DNA of 21,259 nt, taken from positions 1 through 21,259 of the IMG/VR virus record IMGVR_UViG_3300033273_000379, one strand, 5' to 3'. Of this stretch, positions 3,250 through 16,720 are shown in pieces. How positions within the stretch are numbered: the stretch's first letter is position 1; each line of letters opens with the position of its first letter. This DNA is from a virus. The notes below the pieces were generated by a model. That model did no database searches. It was given only the letters and a program-made list of their open reading frames with translations, and was not told the origin of the DNA. A program made the translations under genes and the position numbers.

Positions 3250-3532
3250 ACTGATTAAACATCTTACGAATATTTTGGGTGATTCCCATACCACCAATGA
3301 ACTCTTCTAGTTTATTTCCTTCTTCATCAGTAATGATGAGAACAGGAGTTGCGGTTACACCGTAACGCTTGGCAAGGTCAAGGTTCTCTTGTGGAATGGG
3401 GACATCACTTACATCTTCAAGGTCAACCTTTTCAAGAAGACTGGTACGATTATCTTTGATGGAACGCATATACTTGTCCACTAACATACATGGACCGCAG
3501 GATTCTTTTGAGAAAAGATAAAACTTTGCCAT
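3242..3532 (-). CDS. Thioredoxin-like protein
   Basis: A 96-residue thioredoxin-fold protein, a small dithiol-disulphide oxidoreductase. The active site SCGPC is at residues 11-15, near the N-terminus after a short beta strand (MAKFYLFSK). The cis-proline loop TATPVLII has Pro63, followed by the expected strands and a C-terminal helix. The start at 3532-3530 overlaps the ferredoxin stop as TGATG; upstream codons in frame would lie within petF. It is slightly shorter than the ~105-residue bacterial thioredoxins. Its position directly after ferredoxin is suggestive of a light-driven redox relay, with electrons passing from photosystem I via ferredoxin to thiol targets, but a ferredoxin-thioredoxin reductase would have to come from the host. 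Alternative: a glutaredoxin-like member, less likely given CGPC. Confidence 0.9.
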   Translation of the reverse strand: MAKFYLFSKESCGPCMLVDKYMRSIKDNRTSLLEKVDLEDVSDVPIPQENLDLAKRYGVTATPVLIITDEEGNKLEEFIGGMGITQNIRKMFNQYA

Positions 3533-3822
3533 CAGTAAAGGTTTTCCTCTTGATCGGTTTGAATCACACAATCAGAAGTAGGATATGCAACACAAGTCAG
3601 AACGAATCCTTCATCAATTTGGTCATCATCCAAGAAAGATTGGTCGGACTGATCAACAGTACCAGAGAGAATTTTGCCAGCACAAGATGAACAAGCACCT
3701 GCACGGCAAGAATAATTCAAATCAATTCCTTGCTCCTCTGCGGCGTCCAGGATGTACTGGTCGTCTTCGCAAGTGATGGTTTGTTCTCCATCAGGAGTTT
3801 GGAGAGTGATGTTATAAGCCAT
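3532..3822 (-). CDS. petF: Plant-type [2Fe-2S] ferredoxin
   Basis: A 96-residue soluble ferredoxin, the usual length. Cluster ligands are C39, C44, C47 and C77 in [13 protein letters not shown] and LTCVAYP. The sequence is acidic throughout, as needed for docking to photosystem I and ferredoxin-dependent enzymes. The typical N-terminal ubiquitin-like beta-grasp [14 protein letters not shown] is present and the end is EENLY. It starts 5 nt after a 28-residue membrane ORF and its stop overlaps the thioredoxin ATG. Phage ferredoxins are thought to supply electrons to phage-encoded enzymes such as bilin reductases or to host reductases; none of these is in the window. Confidence 0.96.
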
Positions 3823-13116: not shown

Positions 13117-13898
13117 AATACTTCCCATCCTTCACAATACATGTCTTTAGTTTCTTTATTTACACACTCACCACCAAACCAATTCTTAGGTGCAATAACT
13201 TTATTACTATCTGATAACCAAGCACCCCACCAACTATAAGAACTATTGGCAATGATGTGATACTTACACAGAGTCATCAAACATAAATCACAATCAGTTG
13301 AGTTACCTTCAGCAATCATAAATCTATCACCAGAAAATAATTCTTGCTCTTTACACCATTCAGGATCATCAGAAAAAACAACTACAGGAAGTTCTGGAAG
13401 TCTAGAAAGTCCTTCCTCATAATATTCCATTGTTTGTGTAGGATGATTTGGATTGACTACATAATCACCTCTACGGATATGAAGTGAAATCATATCTTCA
13501 TTAATAAATCCCTGACAAAGTTCTAACAGATCTTGTTTGAAGGTAAAGTCTTCCCTAATTTCATCTTCAATATTCTTGAAATACTTTTCTGTTTGAAAGT
13601 ATCCAAGAAGATCTACATTATCAGGACATCGGTTATATAACCTCTCATCAAAGTGATGAATTTTCTCTTGAATCACTGGTTGCTGATAAACACCCAATTG
13701 ATTCTTTCTTTCTAATGCAAAAACATCATAGAGTATGATATCAGAGTCCTTTACATTTTTATCAACCTGCCCAAAAACTTCCCTTGGAGGAATTACAAAA
13801 TCATACCCACGATGCCTTGCAATTCCCTTCAAAGAAGCGTATTGAAACATTTGATTGGCAAGTCTACCAAGATTGCCAAGATTATTGAACGAAATCAT
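13113..13898 (-). CDS. Alpha-1,2-fucosyltransferase, family GT11
   Basis: A 261-residue enzyme transferring fucose from GDP-fucose, normally to galactose in alpha-1,2 linkage. The hallmark GT11 motifs are complete: an N-terminal variant of G-x-x-NQMFQYA (GRLANQMFQYA, 11-21), the GDP-fucose-binding LHIRRGDY (139-146), VVVFSDDPEWC (172-182), and the C-terminal NSSYSWWGAWL (218-228). The gene is directly downstream of gmd and fcl, which make its donor substrate, and overlaps fcl by 17 nt. Its product could be the fucosylated acceptor required by the GT6 enzyme further down the operon. Length is in the lower range of the family. Confidence 0.95.
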   Translation of the reverse strand: MISFNNLGNLGRLANQMFQYASLKGIARHRGYDFVIPPREVFGQVDKNVKDSDIILYDVFALERKNQLGVYQQPVIQEKIHHFDERLYNRCPDNVDLLGYFQTEKYFKNIEDEIREDFTFKQDLLELCQGFINEDMISLHIRRGDYVVNPNHPTQTMEYYEEGLSRLPELPVVVFSDDPEWCKEQELFSGDRFMIAEGNSTDCDLCLMTLCKYHIIANSSYSWWGAWLSDSNKVIAPKNWFGGECVNKETKDMYCEGWEVL

Positions 13899-14835
13899 TA
13901 TACCATTCGTAAGTTGATTTAATACCTTCCATCAAATCAATCTTTGGTTCCCACCCAAGCGATTTAATTTTATCTACATTCAGAACTTTGCGCGGAGTGC
14001 CATTTGGTTTTGATGTATCCCAATCAATACCACCAGTGAATCCAACAACACTAGAAATGATGCTTGCAAGTTCTTTGATGGTGACATCTTTGCCCGTCCC
14101 AACATTGATTGGTTCTGGTTCATCATACTTCAGCATGGCAACAAAACATGCCTCTGCTAGGTCATCAACATGAAGGAACTCCCGCATCGGAGAACCATCA
14201 CCCCATAGAGTTACTGGATACTGATAAGAACCACCAAGATCATGACCGATAACATTTTTGCCAGCATCAAGTTTACGAATCAATGCAGGAAGAACATGTG
14301 ATGTTTCAAGGTCAAAGTTATCATTAGGACCATACAAATTCGTAGGCATCAAAGAGATTGCATTGAATCCATACTGCTGACGATATGCCTGACACATCTT
14401 GATGCCTGCAATCTTAGCAATTGCATAGGCATCATTCGTTGGTTCTAGAGGACCTGTCATTAGATACTCTTCTTTGATTGGTTGCTCACACATCTTGGGA
14501 TAGATGCATGAAGAACCCAGGAAGAGAAGTTTCTTAACACCAAACTTCCTTGCAGCATGAATGATGTTTGACTGAATCATCAAGTTATCGTAGATGAAGT
14601 GTCCAGGATAACTTTTGTTAGCAACAATCCCACCTACCTTTGCTGCGGCAAGATAAACATATTCTGGTTCGTTACTTTTGAAAAACCTTTCAACATCATC
14701 TTGTCTTCGCAAGTCGAAATGACTTGAAGGTGTTGAAAGAATGTTCGTATATCCTTTTCGATGAAGCATACGAACAATTGCCGAACCCACAAGACCTGTG
14801 TTTCCAGCAACATAAACGCGACTCTCACTGTCCAT
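13882..14835 (-). CDS. fcl: GDP-L-fucose synthase
   Basis: A 317-residue extended SDR that performs the 3,5-epimerisation and 4-reduction of GDP-4-keto-6-deoxymannose using NADPH. The Rossmann motif [10 protein letters not shown] is at 9-18, LGSSCIYP at 106-113, and the catalytic YAIAK is Y137/K141. [17 protein letters not shown] is almost identical in pattern to E. coli WcaG. The ATG at 14835-14833 overlaps the gmd stop by 11 nt; the ATG at 14853 would add residues inside gmd. Full length. Together with gmd it forms the complete de novo route from GDP-mannose to GDP-fucose. Confidence 0.97.
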
Positions 14836-15832
14836 AAAGCACCATGTCCTCAACTAATTCTGTAAAAGAAATTTTGGGTTCCCAACCCAGTTTTTCCTTT
14901 GCCTTAGAGGCATCACCCAATAAAGATTCAACTTCAGCGGGTCGAAAATATTTAGGGTCTACCTTGATAACTGTTCTCTTAGTATTCCAATCATATCCGA
15001 CTTCATTAAGACCTTCACCCATCCATTCAATCTTCATACCGAAGTAAGGTGCTGCTGCTTCAACAAAGTCACGAACAGAATATTGAACGCCAGTAGCAAT
15101 CACATAATCATCTGGTTCATCTTGTTGAAGCATCAACCACATTGCTTCTACGAAGTCTTTTGCATGTCCCCAATCCCTTCTTGCATCAAGGTTTCCGAGA
15201 GATAATACGTCTTGTTCCCCAACTGAAATACGGGACAATCCTCTGGTAATTTTGCGGGTAACAAACGTCTCCCCTCGTCGGGGACTTTCATGATTGAAAA
15301 GTATTCCAGAACTTGCGTGTAGTCCATAGGATTCTCGGTAGTTTTTGACGATCCAGTATCCGTAGAGTTTAGCAACACCGTAAGGTGAGCGTGGATAGAA
15401 CGGAGTAGTTTCTCTTTGAGGAACTTCTTGAACCAAACCATATAACTCTGATGTAGATGCTTGATAGATACGAACCTTATCTTCCATCCCCAAGAGACGA
15501 ACTGCTTCCAGAATACGAAGAGTTCCGAGTCCATCAACATTACCAGTATACTCAGGAGTTTCAAAAGAAACTTTTACATGACTTTGAGCACCTAGATTAT
15601 ATATTTCATCAGGTTCTACCTTCTTGATAACACCAATGATATTGGTAGCATCAGTCAGATCACCATAGTGAAGTGTAAGATTAGGGTTCTCATAGATATG
15701 GTCAATACGATGAGTATTAATAAGAGATGAACGCCTTACAATACCATGCACTTCATATCCCTTTTCAAGAAGTAGTTCTGCCAGATACGAACCGTCTTGT
15801 CCAGTGATACCAGTAATTAAAGCAACTTTCAT
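14825..15832 (-). CDS. gmd: GDP-mannose 4,6-dehydratase
   Basis: A 335-residue NADP-dependent extended SDR making GDP-4-keto-6-deoxy-D-mannose, the first step to GDP-fucose. [20 protein letters not shown] (4-23) carries the nucleotide-binding GxxGxxG. The active site is STSELYG (126-132; Thr127 and Glu129 in the catalytic positions) with YGVAK (Y151/K155). [29 protein letters not shown] and [10 protein letters not shown]-like segments are typical of Gmd; length is slightly under the usual 345-370. It is the first gene of the glycan operon. Its promoter at 15853-15881 gives a leader of only about 14 nt, with no clear Shine-Dalgarno. Confidence 0.97.
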
Positions 15833-15852: not shown

Positions 15853-15881
15853 ATTATACTAAAAAAGGACGGTTTATGCAA
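15853..15881 (-). promoter_or_regulatory. Promoter of the glycan operon nested in terminator hairpin
   Basis: A perfect TATAAT (15858-15853) on the minus strand lies 17 bp after TTGCAT (15881-15876, a weak -35 matching only TTG). As at 4163-4191, the -35 falls in the loop of a terminator hairpin. Transcription would start near 15846, just ahead of gmd. Confidence 0.6.
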
Positions 15882-15887
15882 CCGTCC
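15861..15887 (-). terminator. Rho-independent terminator ahead of gmd
   Basis: An 8-bp stem GGACGGTT/AACCGTCC (15887-15880 with 15874-15867), loop of five, followed on the minus strand by six T (15866-15861). It ends the transcript carrying the two hypothetical genes at 16083-16570 and the tandem hairpin element. Confidence 0.88.
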
Positions 15888-15904
15888 CATTAGGTCTTTT
15901 CATG

Positions 15905-16075
15905 CACGCCAAGTTATTTTTTAACTAGGTAATAACTAAATCCTAGGCAGGAGTTACCCCATCCGCACCACTTGCTTTTAGGAAGCAAGAAACCAAAGAG
16001 GGTCTAATGACTCCACCACCTAGTTTTACGAACTAGGAAACGCGAGGGTCTGTTGACCATCCCGACCAGGGCAGG
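15905..16075 (-). ncRNA. Tandem hairpin element, candidate structured RNA
   Basis: A ~170-nt gene-free stretch holding two near-identical modules (16014-16057 and 15966-16011). Read on the plus strand each has CACCAC, a 7-bp hairpin with a 5-nt loop (TTA plus two bases), GAAAC, 2-4 nt, GAGGGTCT, two variable bases and TGAC. The stems differ (CCTAGTT/AACTAGG versus CTTGCTT/AAGCAAG) but both pair perfectly, so base changes are compensated. A third, degenerate hairpin AGTTATT/AATAACT follows at 15912-15937, and GGCAGG occurs at both flanks (15946-15951, 16070-16075). It would be transcribed on the minus strand between the 91-residue gene and the terminator at 15861. wcaG and manA RNA motifs are known in cyanophages near sugar genes; I cannot confirm membership in either. 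The plus strand could also be the active one. Confidence 0.5.
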
Positions 16076-16082
16076 TTTTAAG

Positions 16083-16358
16083 TCACTCCGCGACTCGATA
16101 TGGAGATTCCACATCATCTTTTCTGTAGGCAGGAACACCATCAGGGTCCAACCAGCAAGTATAGTCATGATCTTCCATGGCAGTTAGCAACTGCATTTCA
16201 TTATCACAAAGATACATATCACGATATCGACCCGTATATGCATCTACTTTTTGAATGCGACAATCGGGCATACCATTGATTTCCAATTTGCCGACTTGAA
16301 TATAACGATAAGGAAACCGTTCAAGAAGAACGGTGGGTTTTTTCGCCACTTCCATCAT
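16083..16358 (-). CDS. Hypothetical protein, 91 residues
   Basis: Starts at ATG 16358-16356 (a second ATG follows immediately) overlapping the upstream stop as ATGA. The protein is a mixed alpha/beta soluble type: VLLERFPYRYIQVGKLEI, then CRIQKVDAYTGRYRDMYLC, an acidic region TAMEDHDYTCWLDPDG and the end ESPYRVAE. Three cysteines, no CxxC pair, no TM segment. No recognised family. It is second in a two-gene operon from the promoter at 16594-16622, and its stop is followed by the tandem hairpin element. Tight coupling and a normal composition argue that it is real. Confidence 0.75.
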   Translation of the reverse strand: MMEVAKKPTVLLERFPYRYIQVGKLEINGMPDCRIQKVDAYTGRYRDMYLCDNEMQLLTAMEDHDYTCWLDPDGVPAYRKDDVESPYRVAE

Positions 16359-16570
16359 GCAACCTCAATAGTTTCAAGATCAGCGTAAATCTGTTCCATC
16401 AACATTTCATAATCATCTAGCGGTTCACCTGAAAACACCACTCCATTGTTTTCGTAGAAGCGGCGCACCTTTTTAAAAAGTTTCGGATTCTTTACATCAA
16501 GGAAAATTTCGCCATTAGCAGCAGCACGGAGGGTGCTGATGTCTTTTTTGAATTTTTCAGTCAGTGCCAT
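16355..16570 (-). CDS. Hypothetical protein, 71 residues
   Basis: ATG at 16570-16568, about 24 nt after the -10 box of a consensus promoter, so the leader is short. The product begins MALTEKFKKDISTLRAA, continues with IFLDVKNPKLFKKVRRFYENNG and an acidic C-terminal helix YEMLMEQIYADLETIEVA. This is a basic-then-acidic helical pattern without TM segment or metal motif. Function unknown. First gene of the two-gene unit 16570-16083, directly downstream of tRNA-Pro. Confidence 0.75.
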   Translation of the reverse strand: MALTEKFKKDISTLRAAANGEIFLDVKNPKLFKKVRRFYENNGVVFSGEPLDDYEMLMEQIYADLETIEVA

Positions 16571-16593: not shown

Positions 16594-16622
16594 ATTATAA
16601 GGTTTTGACTTTATATAGTCAA
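16594..16622 (-). promoter_or_regulatory. Promoter of the two hypothetical genes
   Basis: Minus-strand TTGACT (16622-16617), 17 bp, TATAAT (16599-16594). The -35 is also the left arm of a perfect inverted repeat TTGACT/AGTCAA with a 6-bp AT centre (16605-16622). Predicted leader of about 17 nt before the ATG at 16570. Confidence 0.78.
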
Positions 16623-16644: not shown

Positions 16645-16646
16645 AG

Positions 16647-16720
16647 TCCGGATTGAGGGATTTGAACCCCCGACCCCTTCAGCCCAAGTGAAGTGCGCTA
16701 CCAAACTGCGCTAAATCCGG
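16647..16720 (-). tRNA. tRNA-Pro (anticodon UGG)
   Basis: All arms fold: acceptor CCGGATT/AATCCGG with discriminator A (16647), D stem GCGC/GCGC with GTTTGGTA in the loop, anticodon stem CTTCA/TGAAG with loop CTTGGGC giving UGG at 16686-16684, and T arm GGGGG-TTCAAAT-CCCTC. The C1-G72 pair is the proline identity feature seen in bacteria. CCA is not encoded. A UGG anticodon can read most or all proline codons by wobble, useful for an AT-rich phage in a host of different codon use. Confidence 0.95.

Follow-up and report, generated by a model that had tools for sequence, protein, structure and literature searches.

As judged from its sequence, the tandem RNA in the window (the whole stretch of 21,259 nucleotides analysed here) is a longer, repeated form of wcaG RNA, which is known from marine cyanophages but uncharacterised. 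The wcaG family itself is known; its extended architecture and its suggested placement at a 3′ end are new. With moderate confidence, we favour the explanation that this wcaG RNA of a T4-like cyanophage, extended by two 5′ modules, constitutes the 3′ end of the upstream transcript and would be a stable RNA that either acts in trans or protects its transcript.

Identity and strand of the RNA

Infernal search of the window against Rfam revealed wcaG RNA (RF01761) at 15997-15898 on the minus strand with 70.9 bits (E=1.1e-11), which is beyond chance and above the gathering cut-off of 42 bits. A second RF01761 match, at 16098-16005 on the minus strand, reached 38.4 bits and lies below the cut-off, showing that the second copy is not a full member of the family. 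The sequence-only reading had guessed a link to wcaG or manA RNA; the former was found, and manA (RF01745) had no match anywhere in the window in this Rfam search. The two modules with shared fixed sequences that were described there are present, and on the plus strand they read CACCAC-TTGCTTTTAGGAAGCAA-GAAAC...GAGGGTCTAATGAC and CACCAC-CTAGTTTTACGAACTAG-GAAAC...GAGGGTCTGTTGAC. Their 7-bp stems, CTTGCTT/AAGCAAG at 15989-15971 in the 3′ module and CCTAGTT/AACTAGG at 16037-16019 in the 5′ module (both minus strand), are fully paired and differ from each other at several pairs. By the positions of the Rfam matches, the 3′ module falls within the known wcaG core, and the 5′ module is an addition outside the Rfam model. 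The RNA is assigned to the minus strand, which is also the coding strand of the neighbouring genes, because its G-U pairs would read C-A on the opposite strand. The full array spans 16095-15905 and the terminator ends at 15861; it is thus larger than the region of 15905-16075 originally marked.

A tRNA-derived or protein-coding sequence had been named as what would speak against an RNA element, and neither fits the array. ARAGORN gives only a tRNA-Pro, at 16646-16720. Upstream genes share their last codons with the array, which beyond those gene ends is not coding, since loop lengths vary and stems covary. Elsewhere in the window, PhotoRC-II RNA (RF01717) matched at 989-881 on the minus strand with 43.9 bits against a cut-off of 39; psbA, at 842-3, comes shortly after it.

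Architecture of the array

Read along the minus strand, the array is composed of a hairpin module, a pseudoknot-type module and the wcaG core. The hairpin module, or B module, contains the hairpin AGUC-GCGGAGU-GACU (16081-16095), whose 4-bp stem is supported by pairing in relatives, and is closed by the conserved hairpin segment CUGGUCGGGAUGGUC-AACA-GACCC (16046-16069), recognised from the module patterns in relatives. The extra upstream A-type module (16000-16045), delimited from the sequence and from relatives, consists of UUUC, the 7-bp stem at 16037-16019, GUGGUG and GAGUC..GACCC. The core (15898-15997) comprises three hairpins: hairpin A (15966-15997, stem 15989-15971), in which the 5′ flank UUUGG likely forms a pseudoknot with the loop CUAAA; a middle hairpin, CGGAUGGGGUAACUCCUGCC (15946-15965), taken from the Rfam alignment; and hairpin B (15907-15946, stem within 15937-15912), with the pseudoknot CUAGG:CCUAG, which covaries in relatives. 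All modules are small hairpins or pseudoknots that combine a fixed frame with a stem that varies freely yet stays paired. The tandem content of the window amounts to one complete core and partial modules, because the 5′ copy of 38.4 bits consists of two extra 5′ modules and has no full core of its own; two complete aptamers are not present.

Several further features of the modules were observed. GGA is found in most of them, and a CsrB-like sponge role is only a thought that this motif may raise. In B-type modules of relatives, the second loop base (C/U) covaries with the base three before CUGG (G/A), which suggests one lone long-range pair. A third kind of upstream segment, UAGUCUUUGCCAAUAGACU.., lies ahead of wcaG-like arrays in S-RIM2, S-CAM8 and ACG-2014a.

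Relatives and covariation

To collect relatives, the analysis used two module patterns besides an exact core pattern, and similarity to phage records as well. This yielded some 150 related loci of cyanophages, with 154 distinct cores carrying a U run ahead of both hairpins; these loci are mutually related and were retrieved by conserved sequence, so that the counts are not independent. Since retrieval by module patterns is biased towards modules, module frequency was taken from the core-pattern loci only (76 distinct), and 56 of these 76 carried one or two extra modules. This indicates that the tandem form, which the sequence-only reading had suspected to be different from wcaG, is the usual form of the family. 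Exactly one RF01761 match over the cut-off was found in each of the phages retrieved by similarity (14/14). Of eight cyanophages chosen by primase, a count that excludes S-PM2 and a Pelagibacter phage screened along with them, two had a match that passed the cut-off and another three a match that fell short of it, one match each. RF01761 scores are below the cut-off in S-CAM8 and ACG-2014a, and short arrays with a terminator were recognised there by inspection. The exact core pattern gave five matches in about 85,000 prokaryote genomes, none of them in a genome titled as a cyanobacterium (distant forms could escape this pattern), and only the match in the marine MAG TMED129 parsed as a full core.

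The stems of the array and the pseudoknot of its last module covary strongly. In hairpin B (71 distinct sequences), 99.9% of cells are paired versus 82.7% in shuffles, and 144 double changes were counted versus 37 in shuffles. In the pseudoknot helix between its 5′ flank and its loop, 99.6% of cells pair, compensated changes occur at two of four pairs, and flank and loop are fully paired in 95% of 144 cores versus 43% when shuffled. The corresponding signal in hairpin A appears real but modest, as the mean flank-loop helix is 3.74 versus 3.40 and the maximum of 1000 shuffles is 3.65. In the paper on these families, the figure legend names two pseudoknots only, a questioned one in manA and another in epsC (PMC2864571). 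The A-type upstream modules (101 distinct, with 29 distinct stems) form all 7 pairs in 97% of cases versus 40% when 3′ strands are shuffled, and the 4-bp stem of the B-type modules (86 distinct) is paired in 96.5% versus 35%. Random substitutions in the stems of homologues, which would have argued against structure, were not what was found; pairing is kept and changes are compensated, and the structured RNA proposed from the sequence of the window alone was confirmed in this respect.

Covariation also bears on whether the element works as RNA at all. In many phages, the array borders a variable cargo region, and it could therefore be mainly a DNA-level recombination boundary of a variable sugar-gene island, in which RNA structure is incidental. 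The strong covariation of stems and pseudoknot, together with G-U pairs on one strand, argues against this, and we consider it very improbable.

Position between the upstream stop codon and the terminator

The array has a fixed place between an upstream stop codon and a terminator, and its neighbours are variable. A same-strand stop codon lies within 130 nt upstream of the core in 135 of the 142 cores with upstream sequence. Cores without an extra module have this stop between -12 and +3 relative to the core start (35/36); it is mostly about 20-65 nt from the core start with one extra module and mostly about 75-110 nt with two. Stop-to-core distance thus grows with module number, indicating that the upstream gene ends directly against the array or within it. 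In the window, two small genes precede the array on the minus strand. The first (16355-16570) is gp205-like in place, by synteny with gp205-annotated genes of S-RIM8 and S-IOM18, and the second (16083-16358) is a gp206-like gene, of the largest upstream family in relatives, whose stop codon is within the first RNA hairpin. Ahead of both genes is a promoter-like TTGACT-17-TATAAT (16594-16622, minus strand), a candidate by its 11/12 consensus matches. Upstream gene families are few, yet more than one; in named phages, gp205/gp206/gp207-like or other small genes lie 5′ of the RNA, and this holds with gmd, hli or a tRNA as the next gene. Two unrelated upstream proteins (loci L081 and L086) share the C-terminal SPGTT, probably because an RNA module overlaps their last codons. 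In S-PM2, about 1.5 kb upstream of the wcaG RNA is without an annotated gene (L358 1-1780).

The terminator noticed after the RNA was confirmed as an intrinsic one, with a 9-bp stem and a T run (15861-15888, minus strand), and its place is conserved in relatives. Of 149 distinct stretches downstream of the core, 125 have a terminator within 90 nt of it, versus 1.9% at random places, a control that leaves the relatedness of loci uncorrected, and 105 of those 125 begin 10-19 nt after the core. The terminator precedes the next ATG in 111 of 147 loci. A tRNA is next and no terminator was detected in 11/147, and in about 11/147 an ORF follows directly after the RNA without a terminator, most starting 2-27 nt after it; a role as 5′ leader is possible in those ORF-adjacent loci.

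In the window, a promoter-like TTGCAT-17-TATAAT (15853-15881, minus strand) overlaps the terminator; its TATAAT lies 20 nt before the gmd start. Its -35 sequence, TTGCAT, is a poor match to the sigma-70 consensus. Regular spacing is seen among relatives: in 81 of the 95 loci with a TATAAT-like hexamer, a TTG in the terminator hairpin is exactly 17 nt upstream, and other spacings occur 0-2 times. Together, the TTG of the hairpin and the TATAAT-like hexamer make a probable promoter for the next gene. Similar terminator-promoter pairs are also found elsewhere in these phages, so that such a pair probably marks the limits of transcription units in general. Both elements would be expected to function as they read.

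Downstream of this boundary in the window are gmd, encoding GDP-mannose 4,6-dehydratase (14825-15832), and the wcaG gene, encoding GDP-fucose synthase (13882-14853), both on the minus strand and in the order annotated in S-SKS1. Sugar genes are frequent neighbours of the RNA in relatives, as was also noted by the authors who defined the family (PMC2864571). The downstream gene varies freely while the RNA persists. Downstream families, named from sequence inspection and annotated phages rather than by profile searches, are many: epimerases (the largest), cytidylyltransferase-like proteins, cupin, oxygenases, glycosyltransferases, hli and tail-fibre-like genes, and some tRNA genes.

Because the upstream stop codon abuts the array, a terminator follows it, and few upstream families stand against diverse downstream ones, the position suggests the 3′ end of the upstream transcript more than a leader ahead of the fucose genes. 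Transcription of the two small genes would end with the RNA, which starts around the stop codon of the gp206-like gene and would run to the terminator at 15888-15861. The gmd-wcaG genes would most likely be transcribed from their own promoter, and their mRNA would mostly lack the RNA, since this promoter overlaps the terminator. Going one step further, we infer that the structured 3′ end may be a stable RNA whose function does not depend on the downstream gene: it would be released from the 3′UTR and act in trans, or shield its transcript from exonucleases.

A narrower possibility is a purely cis-acting role confined to the small upstream genes, in which the array would shield their mRNA at its 3′ end or stop an exonuclease. 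Compact pseudoknots right after a stop codon and before a terminator would suit such a role. On the other hand, the upstream genes also differ between phages, and a general stability element looks odd when most genomes searched carry only a single copy. We regard this as possible but tentative.

The riboswitch reading

The discoverers of wcaG RNA considered it probably cis-regulatory and probably a switch (PMC2864571, Weinberg et al. 2010). In line with this, the array could control downstream sugar or high-light genes in cis, perhaps as a riboswitch, with the terminator as its expression platform and cooperativity provided by the tandem modules. Many downstream genes do encode nucleotide-sugar enzymes, and the terminator does come after the RNA. 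If this were attenuation, a terminator arm should pair better with the RNA of its own locus than with that of other loci. The 5′ arm scored 14.86 with its own RNA versus 14.54 when swapped (shuffle fraction 0.05), and its own score exceeded the median in only 46%; the 3′ arm showed no own-locus pairing signal in the same swap test. Antiterminator pairing between the RNA and the terminator arms was therefore rejected as lacking a convincing signal, and no mutually exclusive pairing was found. Terminator stems vary freely and the core is constant. This test bears on attenuation, and translational or other control is outside its reach, as is regulation in those few loci where an ORF comes right after the RNA. 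Besides this, a promoter-like sequence overlaps the terminator, the gene next to the RNA can be a tRNA, hli, oxygenase or tail-fibre-like gene, and the second copy is under the Rfam cut-off without a full core. Anatomy thus does not support the cooperative riboswitch for GDP-fucose genes that the sequence-only reading had put forward, and regulation of the downstream genes by the array seems unlikely to us.

Comparison with known RNAs

The window array resembles wcaG RNA (RF01761; Weinberg et al. 2010, PMC2864571) in sequence and structure, in its cyanophage hosts and in the sugar genes nearby. It differs from it in having two further 5′ modules outside the Rfam model; as far as its position tells, it also forms the 3′ end of the transcript before it and is set apart from the next gene by a terminator.

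The manA RNA (RF01745) is likewise an orphan structured RNA of T4-like marine phages and is also located beside tRNA genes or in gaps of small-gene regions, although it belongs to a different model. In S-CREM1 (L132 3506-3720), it is flush between tRNA-Leu, which ends at 3504, and tRNA-Asn, which starts at 3720, and this does not look like the 5′UTR of a mannose gene. P-RSM6 has it in a gap that precedes transaldolase, and in a Pelagibacter phage it precedes a rubrerythrin gene (L368 1571-1756; L369 1365-1572).

Tandem glutamine (glnA) riboswitches of cyanobacteria are also repeated RNA modules and lie ahead of the gene that they control, whereas the window array is separated from the next gene by a terminator and a promoter-like sequence. 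Flaviviruses carry tandem exonuclease-resistant RNAs, which are repeated pseudoknot modules in the 3′UTR. The window array may be likened to these by analogy, as both would be repeated pseudoknots in a 3′UTR, but fold and viruses differ.

Implications

The wcaG RNA has been an orphan riboswitch candidate since 2010, with passing mentions only in the literature found. The 3′-end reading predicts simple results in RNA mapping, and the same check can be applied to manA. A bolder and rather doubtful proposal is that a 3′-end pseudoknot array with a variable number of modules resists host exonucleases and releases a stable, trans-acting noncoding RNA during infection; if this is true, wcaG was misread as a riboswitch. 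If the 3′-end placement is true, the object of the search would no longer be a sugar ligand but an autonomously working phage RNA.
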